Assembly (NCBI RefSeq): GCF_900403705.1
Contig: NZ_OUNR01000021.1
Span: forward strand, 55,001 to 119,000
DNA from: Nitrospira lenta
Lineage (GTDB): Bacteria > Nitrospirota > Nitrospiria > Nitrospirales > Nitrospiraceae
Direction: 5' to 3'
Length of the DNA stretch: 64,000 nt
This document shows, in pieces, positions 7,595 through 60,041 of the stretch (within the stretch, counting starts at the first letter, position 1; the number at the start of each line of letters is the position of its first letter). The position numbers and the translations under genes were made by a program. The notes below the pieces were generated by a model. The model ran no database searches and was not told the DNA's origin. It worked only from the letters and a program-made list of their open reading frames with translations.

Positions 7595-7597
7595 GAC

Positions 7598-7624: not shown

Positions 7625-7626
7625 CG

Positions 7627-8016: not shown

Positions 8017-8035
8017 TTCTCCTTTTCAGTGTGTG

Positions 8036-10634: not shown

Positions 10635-11018
10635 CTGCGTACGTTACTCCTTATCGGCACAGGCGGGTTCGTCGGCTCGATCCTCCGCTATCTCATGAGC
10701 GGATATGCGCAACAGCTCAGCAAGAGTATTCAATTCCCTTTCGGCACGCTGGCGGTTAATGTCCTGGGGTGCGCGGCGATCGGATTCCTCGCAGAACTCG
10801 CAGATCATCGCGGCGCCATCTCAGGAGAGACCCGAACCTTCCTCATCGTCGGGATACTCGGCGGATTTACCACCTTCTCGGCATTCGGAAATGAAACGAT
10901 GAATCTTCTGCGAGACGGAGAACTCTTACTGGCCTGCGGAAACATTGTCGGCCACACAGTCCTGGGCCTTGCCGCGGTCTGGCTCGGCTATTCAACCGCC
11001 TATCTCATATGGAAATGA
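10635..11018 (+). CDS. crcB: CrcB/Fluc fluoride channel
   Basis: Exports fluoride through a dimeric channel in the inner membrane. The typical CrcB core is present: GTLAVNVLGCAAIGFL (Asn in the pore helix), ILGGFTTFSAFGNE (Phe box and Na-site break) and a fourth span at the end. The first ATG in frame (10695) would cut off the first helix LLLIGTGGFVGSILRYL, which clearly continues upstream. I therefore place the start at a CTG (10635) with AAGG seven bases upstream, giving 127 residues, the normal length. No ATG or GTG is available in that frame. It lies 3 bases before the DUF190 gene. Confidence 0.8.
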   Translation: MRTLLLIGTGGFVGSILRYLMSGYAQQLSKSIQFPFGTLAVNVLGCAAIGFLAELADHRGAISGETRTFLIVGILGGFTTFSAFGNETMNLLRDGELLLACGNIVGHTVLGLAAVWLGYSTAYLIWK

Positions 11019-11021
11019 CCC

Positions 11022-11363
11022 ATGCGCGCTGAAGACGGATGCCTGCTCAGAATCTTTGCCGGAGAAGGCGACAAACACGAGGGACGGCCGCTCTACGAAT
11101 GGATTGTTGCGCAAGCACAAGAGCGGCAGCTCTCTGGCGCCACAGTCTACCGGGGGCTCATGGGCTTCGGAGCACACACCCGCGTCATCCACACATTCAA
11201 GATCGAACGCCTGGCGGAAGACCTCCCCATCGTCATCGAACTCATCGACACACGTGACAAGTTGAATGGGCTTCTCACCTTCCTCGAACAGCACACCACC
11301 TCGGGCCTCCTAGCCACTTTACAACCGATTGAAATCCGCATGATTCAGGGACGCCCCAAGTAG
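11022..11363 (+). CDS. DUF190 protein, CrcB partner
   Basis: 113 residues matching DUF190: LLRIFAGEGDKHEGRPLYEWIVAQAQERQLSGATVYRGLMGFG ... VIELIDTRDKLNGLL. Its ferredoxin-like fold resembles PII-type proteins. Such genes are frequently adjacent to crcB, as here (3-base gap), so a role in fluoride export or its regulation is inferred. The exact activity is unknown. Confidence 0.85.
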   Translation: MRAEDGCLLRIFAGEGDKHEGRPLYEWIVAQAQERQLSGATVYRGLMGFGAHTRVIHTFKIERLAEDLPIVIELIDTRDKLNGLLTFLEQHTTSGLLATLQPIEIRMIQGRPK

Positions 11364-44558: not shown

Positions 44559-45815
44559 TCACCGATGGAATAGGTGACGGATCGACGCCGGAGGCGAGCA
44601 CCATCGCGAAAGCGTATGCACAGGACTCACTCCGCACGCGAGCCAGTGCAACGACCGGCGCCCGCGACACCAATCCGGCAGCGTCTGAACAATGGGATCA
44701 TGACTGCGACACAACGCAATCCCGTATCGCCACCGCGCCTTCCAATCATCCTGAAGCGTAAACAGCAACGCGCCGACATCGTGCTGATCGAGTCCCTCTC
44801 GCTGCTGCAGAAGTAGGCTTTTCGGCATACGCCGGGCCAAGCATACAACATCGGCATCGACCTCAATCAGGCTCAGGATCTGCGGAGGGATCGGTACGTC
44901 CATGACTCGATGCGCCAGCGCCAGGCCGAGCAGCAGCACCCGATAACATTTCCATTCCAGCGCAGTCGTGACCACTCGTTTCCAATTCAACCGCCGGGCA
45001 CAGATCAGTCCGGCTGCCTCCGTCACCAGGCTGAGTTGCTCCCACGCCTGATGCGCGCCGTGCACACAAAGTACGAGTACCGCTTCCTCAGGAGCCAGCC
45101 CCTTGATCGTCCGGCCGTCCAGCGAAACCGACCTGGCCCATCCCCACACCTCCGGCCGATCAATGGGAAAGATCACCCACGCAGGGTTTACCGCCCACAG
45201 CAATTCGATCTGACGCGACGTGGTGCCATGAAGGTAGACCGGCGGCCGCTCACGCGCACCGGCATCGGCGGGGGGCTCACTCGCACCTCCTCGCAGAGAA
45301 TACCCCAGTGACACCACCACGCGATGTGCAGCCTCACGTTGATTCCGGCGCACCAGCATAACCAGATCGGCGGGAGTACAGAGTGTGAAATCCCCATAGA
45401 TCATAGCGGCCAAGCCGACCCCCCGAAAAGGAAGCGCCGAAACCCCGGCCGCATGAAAGGCGCGTGACAACTGAAGCAGATCAACCGCTCCGGCTCGATT
45501 CGCGGCAGCCGCCGCCTCGACCCGTCCACGAAGCGCATCCAAATCCGCCGAAGGAACCAGGTCGGCGCACAGTTCGGTCAGCGTCCTGGCCAGCAGAGAT
45601 TCGACCCCATGGCTCTTGGCCAATTCCAGCAGTAACGGCCAGTTCAAACCGGATTGTGCGACATCGAGAATTCGTCGACGAAGAGACTCCGGTACCGCCG
45701 CCCGGGCGCACCAGATGAGAAATTGAGCCTCACGGAAACGCACCGGATTCACCCAGCCATCAGCCGCAGAAAAAGGTGTCTCCTCATTGGTCGTATGTCG
45801 GAGAGACAGTTTCAT
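44559..45815 (-). CDS. PF14907-type nucleotidyltransferase-like protein, active-site Asp missing
   Basis: 418 residues, paralogous along its length to the gene at 53909. The nucleotidyltransferase block is altered: where the paralogue has IKGATLALSAYGD...FSDLDLL, this one has FRGVGLAAMIYGDF...PADLVML. The second catalytic Asp is Val152 and the conserved Lys is Arg131. Family members transfer nucleotides and occur in lasso-peptide clusters. This copy is probably inactive or acts as a binding protein. It is the last gene of the peptide cluster, 2 bases after the second hydroxylase. Confidence 0.75.
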   Translation of the reverse strand: MKLSLRHTTNEETPFSAADGWVNPVRFREAQFLIWCARAAVPESLRRRILDVAQSGLNWPLLLELAKSHGVESLLARTLTELCADLVPSADLDALRGRVEAAAAANRAGAVDLLQLSRAFHAAGVSALPFRGVGLAAMIYGDFTLCTPADLVMLVRRNQREAAHRVVVSLGYSLRGGASEPPADAGARERPPVYLHGTTSRQIELLWAVNPAWVIFPIDRPEVWGWARSVSLDGRTIKGLAPEEAVLVLCVHGAHQAWEQLSLVTEAAGLICARRLNWKRVVTTALEWKCYRVLLLGLALAHRVMDVPIPPQILSLIEVDADVVCLARRMPKSLLLQQREGLDQHDVGALLFTLQDDWKARWRYGIALCRSHDPIVQTLPDWCRGRRSLHWLACGVSPVHTLSRWCSPPASIRHLFHR

Positions 45816-45817
45816 CG

Positions 45818-46882
45818 CTAGGCCCTCCTCTCAAGGAACCGAGTCAGCACGTGAACAGAGCTGGCCAACGGCCTGACGTACAGGCTCCGAACCGTCTCAA
45901 ACTCGCGCGGCGGCGCATCAAGCAGCCCGACCCGCAGAACCTCAGGATCCCCAGGGTGATAGTGCGTGCCGAACAAGCTGTCCCAGATCGACAGCTTCCC
46001 CCCGAAATTCTTATTCCAATGGCGCGGATCGACACTGTGATGGATCTGATGGTGGGCCGGGCTCATGAACAGCCGATTGACTACCGAGCCATAGGAAAAC
46101 CAGATATGCGAATGGCGCAAATGCGTACCCAACAGCCCGAGCACAAACCCGACGATACTCACGCCGAAGATCATCGTGATCTGCTGGTCACGGCCAAGAA
46201 TGTTCTCATAGAAAACCGCGGAGAACCCGACGACCGGGGCCCGTAGCATCGCGAAACCGATGAGCTCCACCGGATGGACTCGATACGCGGTCGCAGGGGT
46301 CAGCACCTCGGCCGAATGATGCACCCGATGAAACACCCACAGCGCCGGCACCTTGTGGAACAACACATGCGTCCAATAGTTAATCAGGTCCTGCAGCAGG
46401 AGAAACCCGGCGGCCGCAATGACGATGGCCGTCGGAGAAAGAGAACGCGGGGGCTCCCATCCCAGATGCCCAACCAATACCCACGATATCCCTTTGACTC
46501 CCAGCAATCCGATCCCTGTCATGATGGGGACATAGAGAAGAAACGTCAGCACGATGTCGATGGCCGCAAACCGAAAATCCAGCAGAGTCGACCGATGGCG
46601 ATACAGCCGAGCGGGAAAGGCAAATTCTTGAAAGGATACGCCTGTCAATCGGCCTGCTCTCTTCGCGAAGGCATAGATCCCCCAGGCGAGAGCCACGTTG
46701 GAAAGGAGATACGGCCAGGCCAATCCGTATGAGAAATTGATGAAGACCTGAGGAATCTGTCCGACAGCGGCGAGAAAACTCGGCCAGGAGAGGAACGACG
46801 CAAAAAGATACTCTCCAACCCGATCGACAAACCAGATGAACGTCTCAATCATGAGGGACACCGACTTCCATCCTTGCGGCAA
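45818..46882 (-). CDS. Fatty-acid-hydroxylase/sterol-desaturase family di-iron enzyme 2
   Basis: 354 residues, several membrane spans and the eight-His di-iron pattern: HVLFHK, HRVHHSAEVLTPATAYRVHP, HLRHSH, HQIHHSVDPRHWNKNFGG. All His motifs are intact. By family it hydroxylates or desaturates an alkyl chain at the membrane. It is closely paralogous to the gene at 47082. In this operon it may act on a lipid attached to, or produced with, the peptide (inference). Confidence 0.85.
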   Translation of the reverse strand: MPQGWKSVSLMIETFIWFVDRVGEYLFASFLSWPSFLAAVGQIPQVFINFSYGLAWPYLLSNVALAWGIYAFAKRAGRLTGVSFQEFAFPARLYRHRSTLLDFRFAAIDIVLTFLLYVPIMTGIGLLGVKGISWVLVGHLGWEPPRSLSPTAIVIAAAGFLLLQDLINYWTHVLFHKVPALWVFHRVHHSAEVLTPATAYRVHPVELIGFAMLRAPVVGFSAVFYENILGRDQQITMIFGVSIVGFVLGLLGTHLRHSHIWFSYGSVVNRLFMSPAHHQIHHSVDPRHWNKNFGGKLSIWDSLFGTHYHPGDPEVLRVGLLDAPPREFETVRSLYVRPLASSVHVLTRFLERRA

Positions 46883-46917: not shown

Positions 46918-47058
46918 TCATCGGTCAACACGAGCTGACGCAAGCGGCATCCGCCGCCTTCTGGCACGACTCCCGGTACTCGCCCCCGCCGCATCGCGCA
47001 GTAATTCATGCGCGACCGACACCGGTTCAGAGCACCCTTCCTTCTTCTGTTGTTCCAT
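46918..47058 (-). pseudogene. Decayed precursor peptide P3
   Basis: A 46-codon frame starting MEQQKKEGCSEPVSVAHELL, the same leader as P1 and P2, but with Tyr9 changed to Cys and Thr(-2) changed to Ala (RDAAGAS). After the leader the frame shifts relative to P2: P2 has 39 bases between the GAT of RD and its core TGC, P3 has 29. The P2-aligned frame of P3 would read CQKAADAACVSSC-stop, with the same Cys-Gln-x6-Cys-Val spacing as P2 (CQSTSALNCVL-stop). The homologous 3' flank continues past the stop. It is a frameshifted precursor, or carries a one-base sequence error. The ribosome site aaggagtt is weaker than in P1/P2. Confidence 0.75.
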
Positions 47059-47081
47059 TCTTCTTCAACTCCTTCCCACCA

Positions 47082-48161
47082 CTAGAGGCCCTCGGAACGC
47101 ACAACATCCTGAGCGCGAGTGCGTGGGCCGGAAGCGAGGCTTCGCCGAATGAGCCCTCCGGCGCGTTGAAGCGGCCCGACATACAGCTTCCCAACCGTTG
47201 CAAAATCGTCCTTCTTTATGTCGACAAGCCCGAAGCGAAGTGGTTCCTGCCGATCCGGCACGCAGAGCGTCCCGAACAACCAGTCCCACAGCGCAAATTT
47301 CACGCCGAAATTCTTTCCATGATGTCGCGGATCGAGACTGTGATGCGCCTGATGTACGATCGGAGAGATCACCACGCGGTTCAGCAAGGGGCCATAGGAA
47401 ATTGGCAGATGCGAATGATGCAAGTGAAATCCGGAGAGTCCATAGACAAACCCCACGAGGCTGATACCGAAAATCGTCGTGACGGCCAAATCCTGCGGCG
47501 AGAGATGCTCGTAAAAGACAAAGGCCAACCCGATCACCGGCGCACGCAGTAGCGTCGTTACGAAAAACTCCAATGGATGCGCGCGGTACGCTGAAATCGG
47601 CGTCAACACATCAGCCGAATGATGGACCTGGTGAAAGGCCCACAAGAGCGGGACCTTGTGGAGTAACACATGCGCCCAATAACTCATGAAATCAAACAGC
47701 AGATAGAAACCCAGCGCGGCGGTGAACAGCAGGGGTACGGACAAGGTCGTAGGAGGCGCCCACCCGAGATAGCCGACCAAGACCGCGCTCCCCATCTTCT
47801 CGACGATGACCCCAACACCGATCAACATGGGAAAAAACAGCAACACATTGAGCAATGTGCTCACGAGATAGAATCGGTAGTCCAACATTGCAGAAGGATG
47901 ACCGTACACACCCCGAGGAAACAGAAAGGCCTTGAAAGATGGCGCAGACGACAGCCCGCTCTGCTTGGACACAGAGTACGCCACCCCGGCGATCGTCAGA
48001 CTGGCAAGCAGATAGGGCCAGGCCAGGCCGTTCGTGAGCTTGGTGAACGTTCCGAGAATTTGTCCAATTGCCGCCGTGAAGCGGTCCCAGGAAGAGACGG
48101 CAGATAAGGAATATTCCGCCACGCGCTCTAGAAACCATCGTACGGCGTCAATCACCATCAC
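47082..48161 (-). CDS. Fatty-acid-hydroxylase/sterol-desaturase family di-iron enzyme 1
   Basis: 359 residues. Membrane spans at about 45-65, 95-120 and 135-160, then the His clusters HVLLHK, HQVHHSADVLTPISAYRAHP, HLHHSH and HQAHHSLDPRHHGKNFG, all intact. Paralogue of the gene at 45818; the two are separated by the decayed precursor P3, suggesting that a precursor-hydroxylase unit was duplicated. Reaction on the cluster's product is inferred, not shown. Confidence 0.85.
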   Translation of the reverse strand: MMVIDAVRWFLERVAEYSLSAVSSWDRFTAAIGQILGTFTKLTNGLAWPYLLASLTIAGVAYSVSKQSGLSSAPSFKAFLFPRGVYGHPSAMLDYRFYLVSTLLNVLLFFPMLIGVGVIVEKMGSAVLVGYLGWAPPTTLSVPLLFTAALGFYLLFDFMSYWAHVLLHKVPLLWAFHQVHHSADVLTPISAYRAHPLEFFVTTLLRAPVIGLAFVFYEHLSPQDLAVTTIFGISLVGFVYGLSGFHLHHSHLPISYGPLLNRVVISPIVHQAHHSLDPRHHGKNFGVKFALWDWLFGTLCVPDRQEPLRFGLVDIKKDDFATVGKLYVGPLQRAGGLIRRSLASGPRTRAQDVVRSEGL

Positions 48162-48220
48162 CCTCTAGATGTTCTGACCCCACTGAACAATTCCATTACT
48201 CGTCCACCACCCAGTGCTAC

Positions 48221-48257
48221 CTGTGGGCTGGCCGGCATCAGCCAGCCAGCCCACAGA
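48221..48257 (-). terminator. Hairpin overlapping the stop codon of precursor P1
   Basis: Perfect 12-bp arms CTGTGGGCTGGC (48221-48232) and GCCAGCCCACAG (48246-48257). It spans the end of P1 (stop at 48238), so the last codons are inside the stem. It shares a GGCTGGC core with the hairpins after P2, P4 and P5. Probably an attenuator or 3'-stabiliser. Confidence 0.65.
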
Positions 48258-48408
48258 CACGGCTACAGCCACATTAGATGGCTGGGCCTTCGCTGCCGGC
48301 CTTCGGCGTCGGGTTCTTCACGCCGGACGCGCCACCCGTCACATCGCGCAACAATTCGTGCGCGATCAATACGGGCTCTGCGTATGACTCCTTCTTCTGT
48401 TGTTCCAT
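48238..48408 (-). CDS. RiPP precursor peptide P1
   Basis: 56 residues, too short for routine calling. Preceded by a perfect ribosome site (gaaaggaggtgaagaagc). The leader MEQQKKESYAEPVLIAHELL continues RDVTG and has the lasso-type Tyr-x-x-Pro and Thr(-2). The predicted core starts GASGVKNPTPKPAAKAQ and ends NVAVAVSVGWLA. It has no Asp or Glu, so the usual Gly1 to Asp/Glu isopeptide ring cannot form. The C-terminus is strikingly hydrophobic and Val/Ala-alternating. Leader DNA is nearly identical to P2 (127-bp repeat). It is followed by a 12-bp hairpin and then hydroxylase 1. Confidence 0.8.
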
Positions 48409-48447
48409 GCTTCTTCACCTCCTTTCTATTGTTAAAAGTCCCTCGTG
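48321..48447 (-). repeat. 127-bp direct repeat, copy A (P1 leader cassette)
   Basis: Identical to 48670-48796 except for two bases that I can see. It contains the last codons of a B1 gene (HEGLLTIERR-stop as untranslated relic), the ribosome site and the full leader of P1. Coding similarity stops at the core. Confidence 0.9.
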
Positions 48448-48541
48448 TCCTTACGGCAACACGAGAGCGTATCCGCATCGCTTTTGTCATCCCCGGCCGG
48501 ACTCCTCGATCGGCCTCAACGCTCACACCTCGTCCGGTCAA

Positions 48542-48579
48542 GATGGGTTGGCCGGCTTATTTCAACCGGCCAACCCATC
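48542..48579 (-). terminator. 14-bp perfect hairpin between precursors P2 and P1
   Basis: Arms GATGGGTTGGCCGG (48542-48555) and CCGGCCAACCCATC (48566-48579), loop of 10 bases. It lies 40 bases downstream of the P2 stop. No T-run follows, so transcript stabilisation or attenuation between genes is more likely than full termination. Confidence 0.7.
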
Positions 48580-48619
48580 CACACTGCGCGCTTCCTCCCT
48601 ATGCCGTCATAGGTCAAGA

Positions 48620-48757
48620 CTATAGGACGCAATTGAGAGCCGACGTGCTCTGGCACTGCCCGCCGGACACGCCGGACGCGCCACCCGTCACATCGCGCAA
48701 CAATTCGTGCGCAATCAATACGGGCTCTTCGTATGACTCCTTCTTCTGTTGTTCCAT
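48620..48757 (-). CDS. RiPP precursor peptide P2
   Basis: 45 residues. The start lies 6 bases after the stop of the third B1 gene, whose final codons encode the ribosome site GAAAGGAGGTGA. Leader MEQQKKESYEEPVLIAHELL-RDVTG; core GASGVSGGQCQSTSALNCVL with two Cys (C-x7-C) and no acidic residue, so no lasso ring by the usual chemistry. A disulfide or thioether is possible. P3 preserves the same Cys spacing in a shifted frame. Confidence 0.82.
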   Translation of the reverse strand: MEQQKKESYEEPVLIAHELLRDVTGGASGVSGGQCQSTSALNCVL

Positions 48758-48796
48758 GCTTCTTCACCTCCTTTCTATTGTTAAAAGTCCCTCGTG
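48670..48796 (-). repeat. 127-bp direct repeat, copy B (B1 tail plus P2 leader)
   Basis: The source-like copy: here the first part is the true 3' end of the B1 gene at 48764. The second copy at 48321-48447 differs at two positions. Confidence 0.9.
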
Positions 48797-49222
48797 GTTC
48801 AGATGAGTCACGAGGGCGAACAGATCATCGGCAATCCGCTCCGACGGAGCGTCAAACCGCCCACACAAGATGGTGTGGATGGCCTGGAGCGACTGCGTTC
48901 CCGTGCAAGCGTCCCACATCGCCGTTCCCACTCGATTCAAGGTGTAGTAGCGCCCGGTCCCCAAGTGGAGTAACACCGTCTCGCCATCCAGCGTTGTTCC
49001 CTGGACATCCGGATTGGGGCGCGGCACCGCCGACAGGAGGTCCTGCCGAGTATCCTGCCTCCCCCGTTCAATCTGCTGCTGTTCTGCTTCAGACAATACG
49101 GCACGAGCCGCTTCGGCCAGTTGCGCGGTCGTCGAGGAACCCGCCGGTGACGTATGTCCGGGATCGGACTCCACGGTCATATCCGGCCTCAAATCGGCGG
49201 TGATAAACGGCTGTCTTCCCAT
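48764..49222 (-). CDS. PqqD-like B1/RRE protein, third copy (with N-terminal extension)
   Basis: About 152 residues from the ATG at 49222 (MGRQPF), which has GGGAG six bases upstream; an upstream in-frame start is less likely. An N-terminal extension of about 70 residues with an Ala/Glu-rich helix (AQLAEAARAVLSEAEQQQIER) precedes the PqqD-like domain (VQGTTLDGETVLLHLGTGRYYTLN ... IHTILCGRFDAPSERIADDL), which in lasso systems binds the leader. The C-terminus ERR-stop is encoded by the ribosome site of P2. Confidence 0.85.
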   Translation of the reverse strand: MGRQPFITADLRPDMTVESDPGHTSPAGSSTTAQLAEAARAVLSEAEQQQIERGRQDTRQDLLSAVPRPNPDVQGTTLDGETVLLHLGTGRYYTLNRVGTAMWDACTGTQSLQAIHTILCGRFDAPSERIADDLFALVTHLNHEGLLTIERR

Positions 49223-49263
49223 GATGACGCTCCCTTCGTTGTGACTCGACCTTTCCACACGCA

Positions 49264-50163
49264 TTACGCTCGTCCGGCACAAAGCAAATCGGCCAAGGCA
49301 TCGCCGATTCGCTGCCCCGTATAGTTCTCGAAAAAGGGAAACGCCGGGCTGGTATTGACTTCAAAACAGTAGTAGGCCCCCTCCGGTGTCCGCCGAAGAT
49401 CGATCCCACTCAAGCTCAATCCCAGTCCCTTGGCAAGATTGCGGCAGCGGGTCTGAACGCTTTCCTCCAATTCGACCGCCCGCATCGTGCGTTGCTTGTC
49501 TTCGCGCTCGGCATACCGATAATCCGCCCCGTCCGACAACACTTCCGTCGCGAACAGGCGATCCCCCACCGTGTGGACACGCACATCAGCACCGGTAATG
49601 GTCTCTTGTAATTGCACCGGGCAGCTCCGGATCTGTTCCAAGCGAGGAAAATCAGCCGGCGTGAGCGGCCTCACGATCGATCGCTCCGCGCTGATGGATT
49701 TGTAGATGACGCGCCCCTGACAGGCGTCGTAGAAACGGCGCGCTTCCTCCGGCACCATCGTGATCAGCGTCTTCGGAACCCGAAAGCCATACGGTTCAAT
49801 CAACTGCTGCTGATAGGGCTTGGACATGTTCGTATGCGATGCCTGGCGCCGGTTCACAACCAGGACCGGAAGGCTTTCGGCGAACTCCCACAACGCCGTC
49901 GACACCATGCGCTCATGCGGCGTTGAGGCTGACCGGGCGCCGACTCCACGGAGATACACCGCCTCGATGCTTGCGGTATCGACGACCCGCTGGCCGAAAC
50001 GAATGCGCCCCGCGGCGCTCCCGTCTTCCGTCGACCAGGATACGTCCCAATCCTGTCCTTCCGATTCCGGATGGACCAGCATGAGATCAGCGTTCCGGAC
50101 TGCGAGTCGGGCGCAAACGTTCGCGAGTACTGGATCGGCCATCGGCCCCATGAGAAGAATCAT
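49264..50163 (-). CDS. ATP-grasp ligase 2
   Basis: About 299 residues from the ATG at 50163 (MILLMGPMADP), overlapping the preceding ATP-grasp gene by 77 bases. ATP-grasp features: GRVIYKSISAERS (nucleotide-binding Lys), QLQETITGADVRVHTVGDRLFATEV and the metal motif YYCFEVNTSPAFPFFENYTG (Glu and Asn present). It resembles MvdC/MvdD-type and RimK-like peptide ligases, which join a carboxylate to an amine or hydroxyl through an acyl-phosphate. A possible substitute for the missing lasso cyclase, or a C-terminal tailoring ligase (inference). Confidence 0.82.
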   Translation of the reverse strand: MILLMGPMADPVLANVCARLAVRNADLMLVHPESEGQDWDVSWSTEDGSAAGRIRFGQRVVDTASIEAVYLRGVGARSASTPHERMVSTALWEFAESLPVLVVNRRQASHTNMSKPYQQQLIEPYGFRVPKTLITMVPEEARRFYDACQGRVIYKSISAERSIVRPLTPADFPRLEQIRSCPVQLQETITGADVRVHTVGDRLFATEVLSDGADYRYAEREDKQRTMRAVELEESVQTRCRNLAKGLGLSLSGIDLRRTPEGAYYCFEVNTSPAFPFFENYTGQRIGDALADLLCAGRA

Positions 50164-51079
50164 GCTGCGAAAGACTCCTCCGTTCGGAAAGATGTTCGAA
50201 CAGATGCGCCACAATCTGCTGCTGGGCATCCTGCGGACAGCGCCAGAAATTCGGCGCGCTGCTGACATCGAGGCAATAGCTGTCTCCATCGGGGGTGATC
50301 ACGATCTGACACTCGGCGAAGACCAACCCCAACGCGCGCACGAGACGAAGGCACTGCGTGGCGTGAGCCGACAGCACCTCCATCGGCTTAGACACCGCCT
50401 CACCGGGACGAAGCACCGTAGCGGCCACGTGCTCTCCCACCACGTAGACTGTTGCCTGCTGTCCGAGCGGAACCATTTGGAGTGATACGGCCTGCTGTTC
50501 CATCACCTGCCTGATCTGCTCAACCCCATCGTGCGATTGCAGGAACTGACCCGGCTCCGTTGACCCGAGGGGCTTGAGATAGGCCGACTCGCCCCATGCC
50601 TTGAATTGTTGCAGGGCATCGGCCTGACTTGACGTACAGCGGGAGGCCGGAAAGAGCACCCCATGATCCTGAGCGATCTTCGCCAGCAGCGGGCTTCCCG
50701 AAAGAAGCGTGGGTCTGCCGCCCGGAACCGGTCGGTTGATCACGGAGCAGGGCATGCCATTCAAGAAGGCCAACCAGGCAGCGGTGGCCTCCTTCGTCAC
50801 GTATCCGGCATCTAAATCCGATAGCCCCTCAAGATCCAAACGGAGAGGAAACGGGAGCCGGGCAAAGATCCCAGTCAGGTCATCGAGAGGCATCGTTCGG
50901 CCGTCGAGGTCCAGCGATCCGGGAACAACCGACTCCCCGGCTGCGACCGGCCAATTGAGGAGCACCTGATCCAACAGCCGCAAGGGCTCAACCCAGCAGA
51001 CCTCACCACCCGTCCGTTGGGCTTCCCGATGGACAAGCGTGGCCCAAGGATCGGTTGAATCGGCAAGAATGAGAATCAT
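50087..51079 (-). CDS. ATP-grasp ligase 1 (divergent)
   Basis: 330 residues. N-terminal Rossmann-like start MILILADSTDPWATLV, then the ATP-grasp region with AYLKPLGSTEPGQFLQ, LQMVPLGQQATVYVVGEHVAATV and YCLDVSSAPNFWRCP. At the metal-binding position the normal Glu-x-Asn is Asp-Val-Ser, so activity may be reduced or it may be a regulatory partner of ATP-grasp 2. First gene of the second half of the cluster, after a 325-base gap. Confidence 0.75.
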   Translation of the reverse strand: MILILADSTDPWATLVHREAQRTGGEVCWVEPLRLLDQVLLNWPVAAGESVVPGSLDLDGRTMPLDDLTGIFARLPFPLRLDLEGLSDLDAGYVTKEATAAWLAFLNGMPCSVINRPVPGGRPTLLSGSPLLAKIAQDHGVLFPASRCTSSQADALQQFKAWGESAYLKPLGSTEPGQFLQSHDGVEQIRQVMEQQAVSLQMVPLGQQATVYVVGEHVAATVLRPGEAVSKPMEVLSAHATQCLRLVRALGLVFAECQIVITPDGDSYCLDVSSAPNFWRCPQDAQQQIVAHLFEHLSERRSLSQHDSSHGADGRSSTRERLRPTRSPER

Positions 51080-51404: not shown

Positions 51405-53216
51405 CTACTGATAGTGCTGCGCTTGCGTGAGGAATAACGAGGCATAGAGACCTTGGCGGCCCATGAGATCGTCATGAGTGCCCTGTTCCACGATCTGACC
51501 TCGATCTATCACGAAAATCCGGTCGGCCATTTTGACGGTGGACAACCGATGGCTGATTAAGATGGCCGTCCGTCCTTGCGCGAGTTCGTGGAACCGTTCG
51601 AACAGTTCCGCTTCCGCCTTCGCGTCCATGGCACTGGTCGGTTCGTCGAGAATCAGGACTTGAGAATTGCGGAGAATCGCTCTCGCCAGCGCCACCTTCT
51701 GCCACTCCCCGATGCTCAACTCATGCCCCCCGTCGAACAACTTACCCAGCAAGGACTCATAGCCCTTGGGCAAACGCTCGATGGCCTCATGGACCCCGGC
51801 TTGCTTGGCCGCCTGCGCCACCACCGGAAGCGCAACCTCCGACGCGTTCACTCCCAACGCAATGTTGTCCTTGGCGGAAAACTGAAACTTCACAAAATCC
51901 TGAAAAATCCCGCTGACCGCCCCGCGGACATCGCCGATGGCATAGTCGCGAAGATCCGTCCCGTCGATCGTAATCCGGCCGCTCGTGGGATCGTAAAGAC
52001 GGCACAACAATTTCACCAACGTGGTCTTCCCAGCGCCGTTGGCTCCGACGAAGGCCACATGCTCACCGGGTTTGATCGTAAACGTGAAGTCGCGGACCGC
52101 CACCCGTTCTTCATGGGGATATTGAAACGAGACCTGCTCGAACGTAATCCCCTGCCCGAGTGAGGCAGGAAACGGCCGGGGCCGGACCGCTTGAGGCAAT
52201 TTCGAACGAATCGCCAGGAATTCATTCAGCGTCGTCAGAAAGAGATTGCTCTCATACAAATTCGACACACTCCAGCCCAACCCTTCAAGGAACCCCGAGG
52301 CTCGCTGAATAGCCTGAAAGAACATGACCAGGTCGCCCACGGTCAGGAGCCCATGAAATGTCCGCACCGCGACGAAACTGTAGACCCCGAAAACTCCTAT
52401 CACCCCCACAATCTGCGCCGCCAACCCAGCAAGCGCCCATCGCCGCTCTAGAGCGATCCGCTCTTGCCGCAGCACCGTTCGCGCCTCGCGGAACCATTTC
52501 TGCAACCGGGGGCCGAGATCGAACAGACGCACCTCTTTGGCCGCGGTGGCCTGCGTCAGCAGCATATTCACGTACCAGGCCTTCCGCTCCAACGGCGTCC
52601 GCTCACGCTCCCATGCAAACAGCCGGTTGGCCTGCTGCAGGCGGACAAAGAAATACGGAATCGCCGTCAGGGCCAGGACCGGAATAACCGCCCAATGCAA
52701 CCACCACAGAATACCCGCCATCGCCAACAGCGAGATGCCATCCTGAAAACATTGCAAGAGCGCGTTGAGAATCGCGGTGGGACGATACGGCGCTTCCTGC
52801 TGCGCCCGATGCAGCGTATCTTGGTAGCGCGCATTCTCGTAATACTCGAGGTCCACCTCAACCGACTTGGCTTGCAGTAGCGCATGCATATGATCGGTGA
52901 CGACTTGGGCGTGAATCCGGGAAATCAGAGAGGCGCCCACAGTGAGCATGGCACTGATCACAGCGGCCCCCGCCAGGCCCGCGAGAATCGTTGCGATGGG
53001 GGTCAACGAGGCCTCTTGCGAGGGAACCTTGAGCCCCTCCGTCACCGCATCGATCAACAGTTTCGTCAGATACAGCACGGCCAAGGGAAGCAGCCCCTGG
53101 ACCACCCGTACGGCAATACTGCCGACCGCAAGGCTCGGGCTGCTCTGCCAGACAAACGCCAGGGCATACCGAAGCGTCTGAAGGAAAGGACGTATGCGGA
53201 GCAGCAGACTATTCAT
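51405..53216 (-). CDS. ABC transporter, fused permease-ATPase (peptide exporter type)
   Basis: 603 residues. An N-terminal transmembrane domain with about six spans, then the nucleotide-binding domain: Walker A GANGAGKTT, signature LSIGEW, Walker B VLILDEPTSAMD and H-loop ISHR. There is no N-terminal peptidase-C39 domain. In lasso clusters such LasD-type proteins export the mature peptide and give immunity. It lies 26 bases downstream of the B2 gene. Confidence 0.88.
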   Translation of the reverse strand: MNSLLLRIRPFLQTLRYALAFVWQSSPSLAVGSIAVRVVQGLLPLAVLYLTKLLIDAVTEGLKVPSQEASLTPIATILAGLAGAAVISAMLTVGASLISRIHAQVVTDHMHALLQAKSVEVDLEYYENARYQDTLHRAQQEAPYRPTAILNALLQCFQDGISLLAMAGILWWLHWAVIPVLALTAIPYFFVRLQQANRLFAWERERTPLERKAWYVNMLLTQATAAKEVRLFDLGPRLQKWFREARTVLRQERIALERRWALAGLAAQIVGVIGVFGVYSFVAVRTFHGLLTVGDLVMFFQAIQRASGFLEGLGWSVSNLYESNLFLTTLNEFLAIRSKLPQAVRPRPFPASLGQGITFEQVSFQYPHEERVAVRDFTFTIKPGEHVAFVGANGAGKTTLVKLLCRLYDPTSGRITIDGTDLRDYAIGDVRGAVSGIFQDFVKFQFSAKDNIALGVNASEVALPVVAQAAKQAGVHEAIERLPKGYESLLGKLFDGGHELSIGEWQKVALARAILRNSQVLILDEPTSAMDAKAEAELFERFHELAQGRTAILISHRLSTVKMADRIFVIDRGQIVEQGTHDDLMGRQGLYASLFLTQAQHYQ

Positions 53217-53242: not shown

Positions 53243-53719
53243 TCAGATGGCCGCCGTCGTCCCATTCCGGGGGCGCATCGGCGAGACCAGATCAGCGTTG
53301 ACCGGCTGATCGGGAGGGAACGAATAGGTGACGGTAAAACGCTGCCAATGCTGGCCGGGCTCGTGAAACGGCTGACGATCCAGCATCAACCAAGCATGGC
53401 CGTCAAGGCCGGCCCCGTCCTTTCGCACCCCGCAGTGAAATGACACCGGGTAACCCGATCGCGTAGCGAACCAATACAAGGCCAACGACCGGGGAAAGCA
53501 ATTCCCTTTCGCATTGTAGGGAAAGAGTCGGAGCCAGCAATCCACATAGTAAACCAGGTCTTCGAACCTCGCCGGATCAGGCCTCCCGGACAGAGCGCCT
53601 GGGTTCAGCCGCTTCAGCACCGCCGGCAGACTCTCCCCACGCAGCCGAAGACGAATCCAGGACACCACCGCAGCCACCTGCAGTACCATCCGATATTTTC
53701 TCACGACTCGTTTCATCAT
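53243..53719 (-). CDS. Lasso-type B2 leader peptidase (transglutaminase-like)
   Basis: About 158 residues from MMKRVV at 53719; the open frame continues a further 18 codons upstream. The Cys-His-Asp triad is visible: Cys74 in KGNCFPRSLA, His108 in DGHAWLMLD and Asp114. This matches the lasso-peptide B2 family (transglutaminase-core-3-like), which cuts the leader after Thr-x. Only one B2 is present for all precursors. It follows the nucleotidyltransferase gene after 190 bases. Confidence 0.9.
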   Translation of the reverse strand: MMKRVVRKYRMVLQVAAVVSWIRLRLRGESLPAVLKRLNPGALSGRPDPARFEDLVYYVDCWLRLFPYNAKGNCFPRSLALYWFATRSGYPVSFHCGVRKDGAGLDGHAWLMLDRQPFHEPGQHWQRFTVTYSFPPDQPVNADLVSPMRPRNGTTAAI

Positions 53720-53908
53720 GGGCTCAGTGTAACAAGTCGTCTGGACAATTCCTGCATCCGCCCCCTGGGTCACTCGCCCATTCTCCCCACATACACGCCA
53801 GTGGCCAAGACCACGAGTGGGGGTGCGCCGGATGTTCTGGGCCTGGCCGCCAAGTTTCGGCGCGCGCGGAGATGGGGTGGCTTGGAAGGAATGGGCTGGA
53901 TGAGCCCC

Positions 53909-55138
53909 TCAGCCTCCGTGCTCCACCCATCGATTGAGTGCACCCCGGATTGAAGATGGCACCAGATTCCTCACCGCTTGCTGGCACGGCCGAACGAGGT
54001 GCGATAATCTTGCGAGCCCCCTACCCTGGGAAAACCAGCTTGGCGGATTCGCCACAACTGAGGCGCCGTCCCGACACAACACCAGACCAAATCGCCATCG
54101 TTCCCACCAGGTGTCTTTCAACATGAAGTAGAAAGCCGCCGCCTGCTCCTCACTGATGCCGTTTCGAGGACTCGCCAAGAGACTAGCCGGCATACGCTCG
54201 GAGAACATCCGGATGTCGGCGTCGGCCGAATAGCGAGCACGGACGGCTTCAGGAATCGGCGCATCCAACACCCGCTGGGCCAGCGCCAGGCCAATGTACA
54301 CCAGCCGTTGACACCGCCAGGCCTCCGCATGGGAAAAGATCCGCTCCCAATCAAGACCCGGATGTGAGCGGAGCACTTCAGCAACATCGCAGACCCACTT
54401 GAGCAGCTCCCAGGCATGCTTCGACCCATGCACGCAAAGAAGGATCAGCAGTTCCTCCGGCGCCAACGCGTGAACCGTCGAATTCCCCAGCATCACAGGC
54501 GACCGATGTGCCCAGAACTCCGGACGATCCATGTGAAAGGCAAAGTGTTGATGCGCCATGATCCACTGAAGATCGACTCGAAACAGGCTGCGCTTCTTGA
54601 CAAACACATGATAGGGCCCTTCTTCGTGCTCGGCTTCCGCAGGGTCGGTCGAAGGGTCTTTCCGCTCATATCCCTGAGCGTACAACACCGCTTGCGCGGC
54701 CCCGATCGCAGATTCTGGAATCAGGAGATCGAGATCGCTGAAATCGCGAAGCGCCAGATCTCCATAGGCGGATAGCGCCAAGGTCGCGCCTTTGATCGGC
54801 ACAACCGGGACATGATCCGCGGCAAACGCGTCACACAAGCGCCCAAGTTCCTGCGCAAGCGAGCGATTCAGCAAGGCACAGGCTTGCGTTTTCTGGCGCA
54901 GCTTCGTCAATATCTCGGCCGGCACAAGAGCAGGGCAGCTCGTCGATAGACTCCGGTAGAGTAATGGAAGCACCCCGTGATACGCGGCAAGGTCCAGTAT
55001 CAGCCCCCAATCCAGAGGCTCCTGGACGCGCGCGCAGATCTGCGCGCGCAGCTCCTCAGTGACGCACGTGCGGGCGCACCAAATCAGCAGTTCCGCTTCT
55101 GGCGACCATGGAAACTGCCGCGCAGCCGTCATCGTCAT
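53909..55138 (-). CDS. PF14907-type nucleotidyltransferase
   Basis: 409 residues. The nucleotidyltransferase site is intact: IKGATLALSAYGD and DFSDLDLLI with Asp136 and Asp138. Members of this family occur in lasso clusters beside HprK-like kinases and modify the phosphorylated peptide. It overlaps the kinase gene by 4 bases (ATGA), so the two are co-translated. The paralogue at 44559 has lost the active site. Confidence 0.88.
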   Translation of the reverse strand: MTMTAARQFPWSPEAELLIWCARTCVTEELRAQICARVQEPLDWGLILDLAAYHGVLPLLYRSLSTSCPALVPAEILTKLRQKTQACALLNRSLAQELGRLCDAFAADHVPVVPIKGATLALSAYGDLALRDFSDLDLLIPESAIGAAQAVLYAQGYERKDPSTDPAEAEHEEGPYHVFVKKRSLFRVDLQWIMAHQHFAFHMDRPEFWAHRSPVMLGNSTVHALAPEELLILLCVHGSKHAWELLKWVCDVAEVLRSHPGLDWERIFSHAEAWRCQRLVYIGLALAQRVLDAPIPEAVRARYSADADIRMFSERMPASLLASPRNGISEEQAAAFYFMLKDTWWERWRFGLVLCRDGASVVANPPSWFSQGRGLARLSHLVRPCQQAVRNLVPSSIRGALNRWVEHGG

Positions 55139-56148
55139 CGTCCCTTTTCCAGCAACGGAGTGATCAGTTTCGGCAAATCCAGAATATCGCGACCGAAATG
55201 CAAGCGGTAGCAGTCGACTTGCTGTACGAGTTTCGCCAACACCTTAAATTCACGTCTGGCGACCTCCTGATCGTAGACCAGCAAGGCTTGCGGTAAGAGC
55301 GCTTCCAAGGCCCGGCTCTTGGGAAGCAACTCAAGGTGGCTCTGAGGCGCATCCACGACATGAGGGAAGAGCACCATAGCCGGAGAGCAGCGCTCCCCGA
55401 CCGCCGTCGGATAGAGATCTTCGGCATAAAAAAATCGCTTGGGCACTCCCGGATGGAGCACCTGCTCAGACGCCGACCGCAGCTCCGGAAAGAACTGCAC
55501 CGTGGCATCCGTGACATTGATCTTAATCGGGAACGGCAACACCTCCACATGCGCCCCGGAGTCCTGCAGAAGCGGATGATCGTCCGACAGATAGCGATAG
55601 CCGGACCGGAGCAAGGAGATAAACGACGTCGTCTTGCCGCGTCCGCTGTTGCCGGGAATCAAGATCGCACGCCCGTTGTGTTCCAAGGCCGTCGCATGGA
55701 TCGTATAGAGCCCGCCTCGCCGCAGCAATTCAATCAGCGCCAGGTGAAACAAATATTCAATGAGATTGGAGGGCAGGCGGTCGGGATTGATCAAATACCC
55801 GTCGGCCCGACTCTGCGCGCCGTCGATCACCAACACCCCGATCCCATCAAACTCCGCGATCAAGATCCCCTGATCCAGCAGCACGCGATAGGGTAATCCG
55901 GTGGCCCGCCGATCCCCGACAGCTTCACCCGTACCGGACGCCAGTTGCCGAACCGATGCGGATATTGTGAGCGGGACCGATTCCCGATCCTTCACCTGAT
56001 GAAACCGCAGGGCCAGAGCCGGGCCGGATTCGAGTCCATCATCACGGCGGAAATGCCGCAGCAGCTCGTTCACCGGGTCAGCCAGAACCGGCACATCCGC
56101 CTCGTACCTGACCGCCGTGCCGTACAGCGAATAGCAATACTCAGTCAT
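55135..56148 (-). CDS. HprK-like kinase of lasso-peptide clusters
   Basis: About 337 residues from the ATG at 56148 (MTEYCYS); in-frame TTG and ATG codons up to 56178 are alternatives. P-loop GNSGRGKTT (about 166-174), preceding His-Ala (TIHATAL) and SDDHPLL match HPr-kinase-like proteins. In paeninodin-type clusters such kinases phosphorylate the C-terminal side chain of the precursor. None of the intact cores here ends in Ser (they end in Ala, Leu, Asp and Lys), so the target residue is unclear. Confidence 0.85.
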   Translation of the reverse strand: MTEYCYSLYGTAVRYEADVPVLADPVNELLRHFRRDDGLESGPALALRFHQVKDRESVPLTISASVRQLASGTGEAVGDRRATGLPYRVLLDQGILIAEFDGIGVLVIDGAQSRADGYLINPDRLPSNLIEYLFHLALIELLRRGGLYTIHATALEHNGRAILIPGNSGRGKTTSFISLLRSGYRYLSDDHPLLQDSGAHVEVLPFPIKINVTDATVQFFPELRSASEQVLHPGVPKRFFYAEDLYPTAVGERCSPAMVLFPHVVDAPQSHLELLPKSRALEALLPQALLVYDQEVARREFKVLAKLVQQVDCYRLHFGRDILDLPKLITPLLEKGR

Positions 56149-56216
56149 ACTCGTTTCTACCATGTCCTTGAGATTCAACCGACATATTTTCTTCTACCGT
56201 CCGTCCGCAAGAGTGA

Positions 56217-56256: not shown

Positions 56257-56388
56257 TTAGTCGTTATTCCACCACCGGCGATCCTTCCGGTCTTCGCAAT
56301 TGTAGCCGGATTGACCCGCCGTAATGTCACGCAGCATTTCGTGCTTCACCACCATCGGCTGAACGTATGACTCTTTCTTTTGTTCCAT
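56257..56388 (-). CDS. Lasso-type precursor peptide P4
   Basis: 43 residues. Ribosome site gaggaggtaac is 6-7 bases before the ATG. Leader MEQKKESYVQPMVVKHEMLR-DITA: Tyr-x-x-Pro and Thr at -2. Core GQSGYNCEDRKDRRWWNND, with Gly1 and both Glu8 and Asp9, the exact spacing for an 8- or 9-residue lasso ring. The tail is rich in Arg and Trp, unusual bulky plugs (Trp15, Trp16) that could lock the thread. One Cys (Cys7) lies in the ring. Confidence 0.85.
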   Translation of the reverse strand: MEQKKESYVQPMVVKHEMLRDITAGQSGYNCEDRKDRRWWNND

Positions 56389-56423
56389 GGTTCCGTTACC
56401 TCCTCAATGTTGAATACCGACGA

Positions 56424-56489
56424 AATTCTCAGATACTTGCTGCTTATTGAGACCATCTGCTGAACGTACAGCGCTTACGTTTGCCCCAT
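56424..56489 (-). pseudogene. Relic precursor gene P6
   Basis: Starts in the normal place after a B1 gene and its ribosome site (ggaaaggaggtaacgaacag). It aligns codon for codon with P4: ATG GGG CAA ACG TAA GCG CTG TAC GTT CAG... against ATG GAA CAA AAG AAA GAG TCA TAC GTT CAG. The fifth codon is a stop, the Tyr-Val-Gln-x-Met-Val part is preserved, and similarity fades after about 13 codons. Confidence 0.75.
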
Positions 56490-56496
56490 CTGTTCG

Positions 56497-56838
56497 TTAC
56501 CTCCTTTCCTGTTGCAGTAGCCCTTCCTGGATCAATTCATTGATCAGATCGATAAGGTCATCAAGAGCACGTGACGGCACGACATCAAACCGATCGCAGA
56601 TCGCCGCATGAATATCGGCAATCGTGTTCTGTCCGGTGCAATGCTCCCAGATCACGCTCCCTAATCGGTTCAACGTGTAGTACCGTCCGCTGCTGAGGTT
56701 CAAAAGAACGGTTTCTCCGTCCATCGTCGTACCTTGCACATCAGGACTCGACCGCAAACCGATGCGATCGAGCTCCCTCCGGTCGATCGAAGTCCCTGTC
56801 GTACCGGGCACTGTCATCGTAGATACACAGTCGGCCAT
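56497..56838 (-). CDS. PqqD-like B1/RRE protein, second copy
   Basis: About 113 residues from the ATG at 56838, which has GGAGGAG six bases upstream. The PqqD-like domain is VQGTTMDGETVLLNLSSGRYYTLN then LGSVIWEHCTGQNTIADIHAA, nearly the same as copy 1. It binds the leader (family knowledge). The C-terminus QQERR-stop is encoded by a ribosome site that now serves only the P6 relic. P4 follows about 110 bases later. Confidence 0.87.
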   Translation of the reverse strand: MADCVSTMTVPGTTGTSIDRRELDRIGLRSSPDVQGTTMDGETVLLNLSSGRYYTLNRLGSVIWEHCTGQNTIADIHAAICDRFDVVPSRALDDLIDLINELIQEGLLQQERR

Positions 56839-56862
56839 GGGTTCTCCTCCTCGGTCAGTCAT

Positions 56863-57231
56863 GTCCGTATGCCCCTCTCTTGCCAGCCGCTTACCCGGCG
56901 TCTCATTTCTGCGCCGGTCTCCGCCTGGCCCGCCCAGACCGCATCGGCGTCTTCAAGAAAGGTAGCCTGACACTGGGTTCCTGCCTATACCGCCAAAGGC
57001 CGGTCACGGCACCCTTCCTTCGTAGGGGCCAGGAACAAGACCGCGTGCATCGAGAGCAGCGATTTCTAGTTTTAAGGGTCATGCGAATAAGCGAGAAGGC
57101 CCAGTCTCGCGCACCCGAAAACTCTGGGATTAGACATAAATCGGAAGAGAAAGAAGCCACGAGACATGAACCAGAGGGGAGCGCCGAGACGCGCACATAC
57201 CCGGAATAGCAACGAGAGCGAGGCTGAAAAA
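56863..57231. other. Stretch without a supportable gene inside the cluster
   Basis: About 370 bases between the P5 hairpin and the second B1 gene. The short frames here lack ribosome sites, and none carries the precursor leader. It may hold a promoter for the B1-P4-kinase unit. Confidence 0.4.
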
Positions 57232-57269
57232 GAAAGGCTGGTCGATCCTCACGAATCGGCCAGCCTTTC
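57232..57269 (-). terminator. 15-bp hairpin after precursor P5
   Basis: Arms GAAAGGCTGGTCGAT (57232-57246) and ATCGGCCAGCCTTTC (57255-57269) with one mismatch and an 8-base loop, starting 10 bases after the P5 stop. Same GGCTGG core as the others. The minus-strand transcript would read on into TTTTTC, so this one could terminate. Confidence 0.7.
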
Positions 57270-57278
57270 AGACCGCGA

Positions 57279-57389
57279 CTACTTATCGCAGTCCCTGCAC
57301 ACGTTGCCAGACTGCCCCGCCGTAATGTCGCGCAGCAACTCGTGCTTCACAACCACCGGCTGAACATACTGCTCTTTCTTTTGTTCCAT
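57279..57389 (-). CDS. Lasso-type precursor peptide P5
   Basis: 36 residues, 7 bases after the first B1 gene; ribosome site gaaaggaggtgaag. Leader MEQKKEQYVQPVVVKHELLR-DITA. Core GQSGNVCRDCDK: Gly1 and Asp9 have lasso spacing, leaving a tail of only three residues (Cys10, Asp11, Lys12), very short for a stable threaded lasso. Cys7 in the ring and Cys10 just after it could form a disulfide that holds the structure. Confidence 0.85.
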   Translation of the reverse strand: MEQKKEQYVQPVVVKHELLRDITAGQSGNVCRDCDK

Positions 57390-57396
57390 TTGTTCT

Positions 57397-57735
57397 TCAC
57401 CTCCTTTCTTGTTCAAGTAACCCTTCCTTAATCAACTCATTGGCTAACGCCAGAAGATCGTCGAGTGCTCGTTCCGGCGCAACGTCAAATCGGTCACAAA
57501 GCACTGCGTGGACCTCACGAATAGTCTGAGTTCCCGTACAGTGCTCCCAGATGACGCTACCCAATCGGTTCAATGTGTAGTACCGCCCGGTCCTCAGATC
57601 CAGCAATACCGTCTCCCCGTCCATCGTTGTGCCCTGCACATCGGGACAGGCTCGCAAGACAGTCCCGTCCAAAGCTGTCGGATCAAGCACTGGTACTGAT
57701 TCAGAAGATGACGATGGGATTGCAGGCTCAGACAT
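57397..57735 (-). CDS. PqqD-like B1/RRE protein, first copy
   Basis: About 112 residues from the ATG at 57735 (MSEPAIPS), with AGGA seven bases upstream; a TTG at 57759 is an alternative. PqqD-like fold: CPDVQGTTMDGETVLLDLRTG, RYYTLNRLGSVIWEHCTG, ALDDLLALANELIKEGLL. First gene of the cluster in transcription order. The last codons (QERR-stop) double as the ribosome site of P5. Confidence 0.87.
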   Translation of the reverse strand: MSEPAIPSSSSESVPVLDPTALDGTVLRACPDVQGTTMDGETVLLDLRTGRYYTLNRLGSVIWEHCTGTQTIREVHAVLCDRFDVAPERALDDLLALANELIKEGLLEQERR

Positions 57736-57759
57736 AGGCCATTCCTGTATCGATTCCAA

Positions 57760-58222
57760 ACGAGTCTGGCAGACGAATCCTGTACCCGCCGTCCTTGGGC
57801 AGAAACGCTACATACTCAGCATGGATAAGAACAAGATTTCTCAGCTTAAACTGACCGAGGCTCCACATGAATACGCATCTGGCAAAGACAGCTAGCGGAC
57901 GAGACTGACACCTGAAGACCATAGACAGAATGCCTCCTCACCAGCGTGGAGATGACGATACCATCACTTAGGAAATAATCAGTCTGAGAAGACCAGAGAG
58001 TATCCTAAGTTGAGTCCATCACATCACCCCCTCTAAAGAGGGATTGGACAGCCCCACACACTGGTCGCTTTTGCATGAATAGATCAGGCGAATTCGTGAG
58101 GGGCTGCCGAGAATCGGCACGCTCACGACGATTCAAATTGAAGCAGGAAGTGGATTTCGGGAGAGAACAACGAGGAGAATCTTACGGGAGAGGCAGCTGC
58201 ACGCGCAGGAAATGTAATCTGT
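57760..58222. other. Upstream flank of the peptide cluster
   Basis: 463 bases between the PilZ gene and the first B1 gene, both on the minus strand. No gene is supported. A small CCCTCTAAAGAGGG hairpin near 58030 may end the PilZ transcript. The promoter of the peptide cluster should lie here; I could not place it. Confidence 0.45.
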
Positions 58223-58543
58223 TTATAAAGACGACGCGGTGTCGCTCTGATTCAGCATCTCTTCCAATTGCGCTTTGGCGTTGCTTTCGAACCGGACAAA
58301 CTCCACGCCAAACCGATGGTCTCGTTGCCAGCGAACCGTTGCAATCGCAATGTCGATAGGGTTCCGTGCGCCGGACAAATGAATGTGCACACGAAAATGA
58401 GCGCCGATTGCAGCGGAGAGATCCGATTCGATCTCTCCACCGGTAATGGTGAGATTCGTCATCGTCCCGGTTCCGTCGCCCCCCTCGCCGCTCAGCGTGA
58501 CGGGATAGTCCACTTCAATCCTTGGTCGGCCGCGTTCATGCAT
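58223..58543 (-). CDS. PilZ-domain protein
   Basis: 106 residues, a single PilZ domain. The start RGRPRIEVDYPVTL is Arg-x-x-x-Arg-like but incomplete (RPRIEVDY), and the second motif NLTITGGEIES takes the place of the usual D/N-x-S-x-x-G with Thr for Ser. The signature is thus partly degenerate and c-di-GMP binding uncertain. It lies between purF and the peptide cluster. Confidence 0.7.
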   Translation of the reverse strand: MHERGRPRIEVDYPVTLSGEGGDGTGTMTNLTITGGEIESDLSAAIGAHFRVHIHLSGARNPIDIAIATVRWQRDHRFGVEFVRFESNAKAQLEEMLNQSDTASSL

Positions 58544-58586
58544 AACGAACCACTCTCCTGTGAGGCGCGGGTGACACAGTGACCGA

Positions 58587-60041
58587 CTACATCACCTTCT
58601 TCACATCGGCCGATGGTCCAAATAACCCAAGCTGCATTTCTTCGGCACGCGTAAAGGCAATCGGGTATTTTTCAGTGAAGCAGGCATTGCAATATTGAGC
58701 CGGGACGCCCGGCGCCGATTGCAGCATGCCGTCTAGACTCAAATAGGCCAGCGAATCCGCGGTAATGTATTTGCGGATTTCCTCGGTGGAATGATTCGAC
58801 GCAATCAGCTCTTTTTTCGTCGGCGTATCGATGCCATAGAAACACGGCGAGACGATCGGCGGGGAACTGATTCGCATATGGACTTCTTTGGCGCCGGCGT
58901 TCCGCAGCATCTTCACGATCTTCCGGCTCGTCGTCCCGCGGACGAGCGAATCGTCGACCACTACGACCCGTTTGCCCGTCAGCACTTCAGGCACCGCGTT
59001 CAGCTTGACCTTCACGCCGAAGTGACGGATGGACTGTTCCGGCTCGATGAAGGTGCGACCGACATAGTGATTGCGAATCAACCCCGTCTCGAAAGGAATC
59101 CCCCCGCCCTCGCTATAACCCAGAGCCGCAGGCACACCGGAGTCCGGCACGGGAATCACGATATCCGCATCCACCCAGGATTCTTTGGCCAATCGACGGC
59201 CCAACGCCTTCCGCGTCGAATAGACCGCGTTCGCACCATAGATTCGGCTATCCGGTCTGGCAAAGTAGACATACTCAAATACACACATGGCCGGATCGAC
59301 TTTGGGGAACGGCCGGTGGCTGTCGATCCCCTGATCGCTCAAAACCACCAATTCACCCGGCTCGATTTCGCGAATGTACTCGGCATCCAGCAGGTCGAAC
59401 GCGCAGGTTTCCGATGCCACGACCCAACTTCCGCGCACACGCCCCAAGCACAGCGGCCGCAGGCCATGCGGATCGCGCACCGCGATCAACCCGTTATCCG
59501 TCATCAAGACCAGCGAGAACGCGCCCCGCACCTGATTCAAGGCATCCATCACACGCGCTAGAAACGTGCTGGCGCGTGAATGGGCGATCAGATGGATGAT
59601 GACTTCGGTATCGGACGTGGATTGAAAGATCGCGCCGTAGGCTTCAAGCTCGTTGCGCAAAACCTGAGCGTTGATCAGATTGCCGTTGTGCGCCAGCGCC
59701 AGATTGCCGAAGGCGAAGTTGACATTGAAAGGCTGGACATTTTTCAGATCGTTCCCGCCTGCCGTGGAGTACCGATTGTGGCCGATGGCCATCCGTCCCG
59801 GCAATTTCTCCAGCGTCGTCTTATTATAGATATCCGCAACCAGCCCCATCCCCTTCTGGATATAAAACTGATCGCCGTCGCCGGACACGATACCCGACGC
59901 TTCCTGCCCGCGATGCTGCAGCGCATAGAGTCCCAGGTAGGTCAGATTCGCGGCCTCTTCGTGGCCGTAAATGCCGAACACAGCGCATTCGTCATGAAAC
60001 TTGTCCGGCGAAATGATGGGAAGTTCTTTGTGCATAATCAT
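58587..60041 (-). CDS. purF: Amidophosphoribosyltransferase
   Basis: 484 residues. Catalytic Cys19 in [11 protein letters not shown] is preceded by an 18-residue propeptide, as in the Bacillus-type enzyme. The glutaminase half has HRGQEASG and [10 protein letters not shown]. The PRTase half has [16 protein letters not shown]. Cys residues (SPCFYG, YCNACF) fit the structural 4Fe-4S cluster of this type. It makes phosphoribosylamine, the first committed step of purine synthesis. Last gene of the operon, 10 bases after purL. Confidence 0.96.

Follow-up and report, generated by a model that had tools for sequence, protein, structure and literature searches.

Genes of the cluster

The window analysed here is a stretch of 64,000 nucleotides from Nitrospira lenta that sits on a 142-kb contig and carries a cluster of peptide precursor genes and associated enzymes, all on the minus strand. 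The P4 precursor (56257-56388) is 43 amino acids long, has the core GQSGYNCEDRKDRRWWNND and is assigned by its leader family and by the conserved P4 class to which it belongs. The P5 precursor (57279-57389; core GQSGNVCRDCDK) has the same kind of leader, with Tyr, Pro and Thr in the register Y-17, P-14 and T-2. It comprises 36 amino acids when counted from the ATG at 57389, and a TTG start at 57416 gives a longer frame. Good ribosome-binding sites precede the ATGs of both precursors. Because homologues of the P4 and P5 classes are found in several other Nitrospira genomes, both are real genes.

Each of these precursors is paired with a PqqD-type RRE. The B1-like RRE next to P5 (57397-57759; PF05402, E 8.9e-18) has the lasso B1 protein TbiB1 as its best PDB match, and that of P4 occupies positions 56497-56862 (PF05402, E 1e-17). 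Between the latter and P4, at 56390-56489 (the downstream end is approximate), we detected a ribosome-binding site and an ATG followed by a stop after four codons (MGQT*ALYVQQMV), in which YVQ is still legible. Comparison of translations reveals an intact precursor at this position in two relatives (L041 and L042), and the element is probably the decayed remnant of a sixth precursor.

The other genes of this part of the cluster encode an HprK-like kinase (55135-56178; TIGR04352, E 5.6e-17), supported also by its motif and structural model and placed by the kinase tree in the clade called S3 below, an NTP_transf_5 nucleotidyltransferase-fold enzyme (53909-55138; PF14907, E 4.4e-64) with D135 and D137 intact, a B2 transglutaminase-like leader peptidase (53243-53773) and an ABC exporter (51405-53216; PF00005 and PF00664). 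The B2 protein scores 43.2 bits with the lasso_biosyn_B2 model, passing the curated NCBIfam cut-off of 33, and its C92 and H126 are invariant. A PDB sequence search returned nothing informative for B2 or NTP_transf_5.

A second module includes an ATP-grasp ligase related to graspetide synthetases (49264-50289; 7drm, E 2.7e-25; AMdnB, CdnC), its conserved partner without a Pfam match (50087-51079) and a further PqqD-type RRE (48764-49282; PF05402, E 1.8e-16). Here lie the precursors P3 (48620-48757; core GASGVSGGQCQSTSALNCVL), P2 (48274-48408; core GASGVKNPTPKAGSEGPAI) and P1 (46918-47058), which together span 46918-48757 and have the same leader as P4 and P5. The module also contains a fatty-acid-hydroxylase-family membrane protein (47082-48161; PF04116, E 1e-23), a second protein of that family (45818-46882; PF04116, E 2.1e-24) and a second NTP_transf_5 protein (44559-45815; PF14907, E 3.3e-38). 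The DxD motif of this last protein is degenerate, reading ADLVML versus SDLDLL in the enzyme with the intact motif, and it may therefore have lost catalysis.

Leaders and cores of P4 and P5

Features typical of lasso peptides, namely a YxxP leader with Thr at -2, an RRE and a B2 peptidase, are all present. Of 99 precursors, 97 have Tyr at leader position -17, 98 have Thr at -2 and every one has Pro at -14, and the leader positions of P4 and P5 are in the same register as those of lasso leaders processed by B1 and B2 (PMC10368454). This register, together with the B1 and B2 genes, supports cleavage before GQSG, which the first-pass annotation had proposed and which published homologues also lead us to predict.

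With a cut after T(-2)-A(-1), the P4 core has G1, S3, C7, E8, D9, W15 and W16, and the P5 core has G1, S3, C7, D9 and C10, with three residues beyond D9. The translated ORFs agree in these respects with the earlier description, which had named Gly1 and the acids of both cores, the shared GQSG start and Cys7, the short P5 tail, the adjacent Trp residues of P4 and the absence of a C-terminal Ser from both cores. Cys7 and the acids at 8 and 9 are conserved in P4-class cores. P5-class cores keep two Cys residues 3-5 positions apart in 12 of 12 cases, and a Cys7-Cys10 disulfide in P5 is possible, if speculative.

Kinase and nucleotidyltransferase

An AlphaFold model of the kinase (pLDDT 88) has PEP carboxykinases as its best PDB matches; HPr kinase and PEP carboxykinase share one kinase fold. 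Residues H161, G176, G179, G181, K182, T183, D199 and D200 match the motif of BsfK with the same spacing. BsfK phosphorylates Ser3 of its precursor and accepts Thr but refuses Tyr (PMC10368454), and LppK, from the pathway of linear polyphosphorylated peptides (LPP; Popov et al. 2026, PMC13381572), (poly)phosphorylates Ser3 and tolerates neither Thr nor Tyr in its place. It had been remarked in the first-pass annotation that such kinases normally act on a C-terminal Ser. This is true of paeninodin-type kinases, but the missing C-terminal Ser is no obstacle here, since BsfK and LppK target core Ser3, a residue found in P4 as well as in P5. Phosphorylation of a C-terminal Ser was itself ruled out as a candidate, since just 6 of the 81 cores have Ser or Thr as their last residue. 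We predict that the kinase phosphorylates core Ser3.

D135 and D137 of the NTP_transf_5 enzyme are invariant across 20 aligned homologues, and its model shows modest-scoring similarity to MenAT1, ANT(2'') and FKRP. In the pseudomycoidin pathway, PsmN has been linked to a hexose on a phosphorylated lasso peptide (PMC9266682), and deletion of lppN caused no change in the LPP study (PMC13381572). As a guess, NTP_transf_5 may transfer a sugar or a phospho-group onto the peptide phosphate.

Kinase clades and core residues

The kinase tree contains three well-supported clades, which correspond to the core motifs S3, S4 and Y3. Duplicate loci were removed before clades and gene content were counted, and loci were placed in clades by hand from the tree. 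Where an S3-clade kinase occurs alone, Ser3 is found in 46/46 intact cores, a count that leaves out P1 (the 47th) because it is frameshifted; loci of the S4 clade have Ser4 in 23/23 cores and those with only a Y3-clade kinase have Tyr3 in 5/5, and since kinases within a clade are related to one another, these counts represent few independent co-variation events. Where S3 and Y3 kinases occur together, the loci have 14 S3 cores, 9 Y3 cores and no other type. Tyr3 is the sole invariant hydroxyl residue of Y3 cores, one of which has no Ser or Thr.

Among loci with the ATP-grasp module, those with a Y3 kinase have 14 Tyr and 4 Ser cores, versus 0 Tyr and 7 Ser in those without (Fisher p 0.0007; with the decayed P1 removed, 0 Tyr and 6 Ser, p about 0.0016 by hand calculation), in a comparison of sequences that are related and not independent. 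The window belongs to the latter kind, having neither the second (Y3) kinase nor an intact Y3 core. An alternative frame of P1 reads EYRESCQKAADAACVSSC (score 65 versus a shuffle maximum of 31) and resembles QKYKEQCQKAVDAVCVS of relatives. The window has lost its Y3 kinase, and P1 is a frameshifted Y3-type precursor. P1 was also considered as a Thr3 core, an assignment dropped once the frameshift and the Y3-type core in the other frame were found.

We tentatively propose, at less than even odds, that these peptides form a linear Nitrospira RiPP family in which each of three HprK-like kinase clades has its own fixed target residue, Ser3, Ser4 or Tyr3. That the Y3 clade is a Tyr-phosphorylating peptide kinase of the HprK type is an equally tentative suggestion.

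Alternative explanations

Ser3, Ser4 and Tyr3 might instead be kept because the B2 peptidase or the RRE recognizes them, without phosphorylation, and residues 3 and 4 are indeed near the cut site. We consider this improbable, because five loci combine S3 and Y3 cores in one cluster whose maps have a single B2 and a duplicated kinase, and because intact Y3 cores are missing from ATP-grasp-module loci that lack a Y3 kinase (p 0.0007 in the comparison of related sequences above). The other alternatives concern rings. No gene for an Asn-synthase-like lasso macrolactam cyclase is present on the 142-kb contig. The ring spacing described in the first-pass annotation does exist, but this absence had gone unmentioned there. 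Near the clusters of 15 relatives we found no full-length Asn synthase except in one genome (G099), which has a canonical AsnB ending about 4 kb away from the RRE, and there is no AsnB-like match inside the 30 loci that have RRE, B2, kinase and NTP transferase. None of 12 genomes has a match at or above the 525-bit cut-off for lasso cyclases (best score 304; best in the host 215). Ring residues are not conserved family-wide, though P4 and P5 themselves have them: Gly1 with an acid at 7-9 occurs in 17 of 98 unique cores, 20 of the 98 have no acid whatever, and Gly1, or every acid, is missing from many homologous cores. When residues 5 to the end are shuffled, an acid falls at 7-9 in 64% of shuffles, for P4 and P5 alike, so their ring spacing is weak evidence. 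The acid is found there in 4 of 12 P5-class cores versus 5.6 expected, and in 11 of 11 P4-class cores versus 6.4 expected. Gene content and missing conservation led us to reject a lasso ring for P4 and P5. The leader, B1/B2 and HprK-like kinase of the original lasso reading stand; its macrolactam ring and threading are not supported, given the missing cyclase gene and a ring acid that is unconserved in the P5 class and the wider family.

A cyclase from another part of the genome could nevertheless close the ring of P4 and P5, or of P4 alone, and make them true lasso peptides. Their leader, B1 and B2 are of the lasso type, the P4 class retains what a ring would require, with Gly1 in almost every core and acids at 8 and 9, and the four full-length Asn synthases of the host, all on other contigs, could act in trans. 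However, those synthases reside in glycosyltransferase loci, begin with MCGI as glutamine-dependent enzymes do, and fall short of the lasso-cyclase cut-off, and the same gene set often serves homologous cores that lack Gly1 or any acid, which makes this explanation very improbable. We regard as the least probable of the three the idea that the cores, chiefly P1-P3, are graspetides whose side chains are joined into rings by the ATP-grasp ligase. This ligase is related to graspetide synthetases, and module cores in relatives bear Lys, Ser or Thr and Asp or Glu (for example, QKYKEKTSDKVVDVVGN), but P3 has no Asp or Glu, the ligase is absent from most loci, and one locus without it (L084) has P4-class cores.

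Proposed pathway

With no ring-tying gene in the cluster, the products of P4 and P5 are most likely short, linear and phosphorylated. We assign a probability of about three in four to the interpretation that they are linear, leader-cleaved, Ser3-phosphorylated peptides of a RiPP pathway without a cyclase, with phosphorylation and cleavage predicted from published homologues. The YxxP leader would be bound by the PqqD-type RRE, core Ser3 would be phosphorylated by the HprK-like kinase, and B2 would cut after T(-2)-A(-1). NTP_transf_5 may then decorate the phosphate, and the ABC protein would export the peptide. The end products would be linear phosphopeptides of 12 residues (P5, with or without the disulfide) and 19 residues (P4).

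Relationship to known systems

LPPs are the closest known kind, and apart from the LPP paper (PMC13381572) our literature search yielded no account of cyclase-less lasso clusters. The LPP pathway yields a linear Ser3-phosphorylated peptide, and shares with the present clusters the lack of a cyclase, a discrete RRE, a YxxP leader, an HprK-like kinase acting on Ser3, an NTP transferase, an exporter and variable cores (PMC13381572). However, LPPs have an SpI-like peptidase and were reported as restricted to Bacillota (PMC13381572), whereas the present host is a Nitrospira and the peptidase role is filled by a lasso B2; no SpI gene was noticed among the genes identified in these loci. The leader end LRD[IV]T[AG] also differs from that of LPPs, and some clusters here add the ATP-grasp/hydroxylase module and Ser4 or Tyr3 cores. 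The cluster would work like an LPP pathway with a lasso peptidase, and it lacks the defining lasso gene.

The Bsf pathway of Bradymonas (PMC10368454) is similar in its YxxP leader (Tyr -17, Pro -14), B1, B2, kinase motif spacing and Ser3 phosphorylation site, and some Bsf clusters have an N gene. Bsf clusters were described as lasso, with a conserved Asp8 for the ring, in contrast to the unconserved ring acid and absent cyclase here, and residue -2 is Ile in Bsf but Thr here. For paeninodin and pseudomycoidin (PMC8498205, PMC9266682), B1/B2 processing, an HprK-like kinase and a nucleotidyltransferase gene are likewise described, but the phosphate is on the C-terminal Ser of a ring-closed peptide, a position at which few cores of the present family have Ser or Thr. 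Like graspetides (plesiocin and products of microviridin-type ATP-grasp ligases), the second module has a related ligase, but leader and peptidase here are of the lasso type, and P3 has no acid acceptor.

These clusters combine lasso-type leader machinery, including a B2 peptidase of their own, with the lack of a ring-closing gene. They occur outside Bacillota, in a genus of nitrifiers to which the sequenced Candidatus Nitrospira defluvii also belongs. The correspondence of core residue and kinase clade yields rules for phosphorylation sites that can be tested directly, and, if it is borne out, the Y3 clade may represent a Tyr-specific HprK-like kinase, unlike BsfK and LppK. There is also a warning that lasso calls made from leader, B2 and ring spacing alone may be wrong.

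Distribution among relatives

Relatives of the cluster are nearly all from Nitrospira, and RRE, B2, kinase and NTP transferase occur together in 30 of the 35 precursor-bearing loci that are untruncated and non-redundant. The five exceptions are two orphan precursors with no partner genes within about 10 kb (L069, 9784-9993; L076, 9471-9644), a locus with an RRE that scored under the threshold (L086), a locus in a Chloroflexi MAG (L125) and a spurious match (L132). The Chloroflexi locus (7112-11092) lacks B2 and NTP transferase but has ATP-grasp-like genes alongside an RRE, a precursor and a kinase, and may reflect either a binning error or gene transfer. In Syntrophomonas (L131 and L132), PqqD-, B2-, HprK- and NTP-transferase-like genes adjoin a DUF362 protein. 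For Candidatus Nitrospira defluvii, a phosphorylated form of IQLSRVLDRTPA is predicted. The cluster lies between purF and a redoxin gene in 22 of the 35 untruncated loci (57397-58587 in the window, and relatives), a fixed chromosomal place and not a mobile one.
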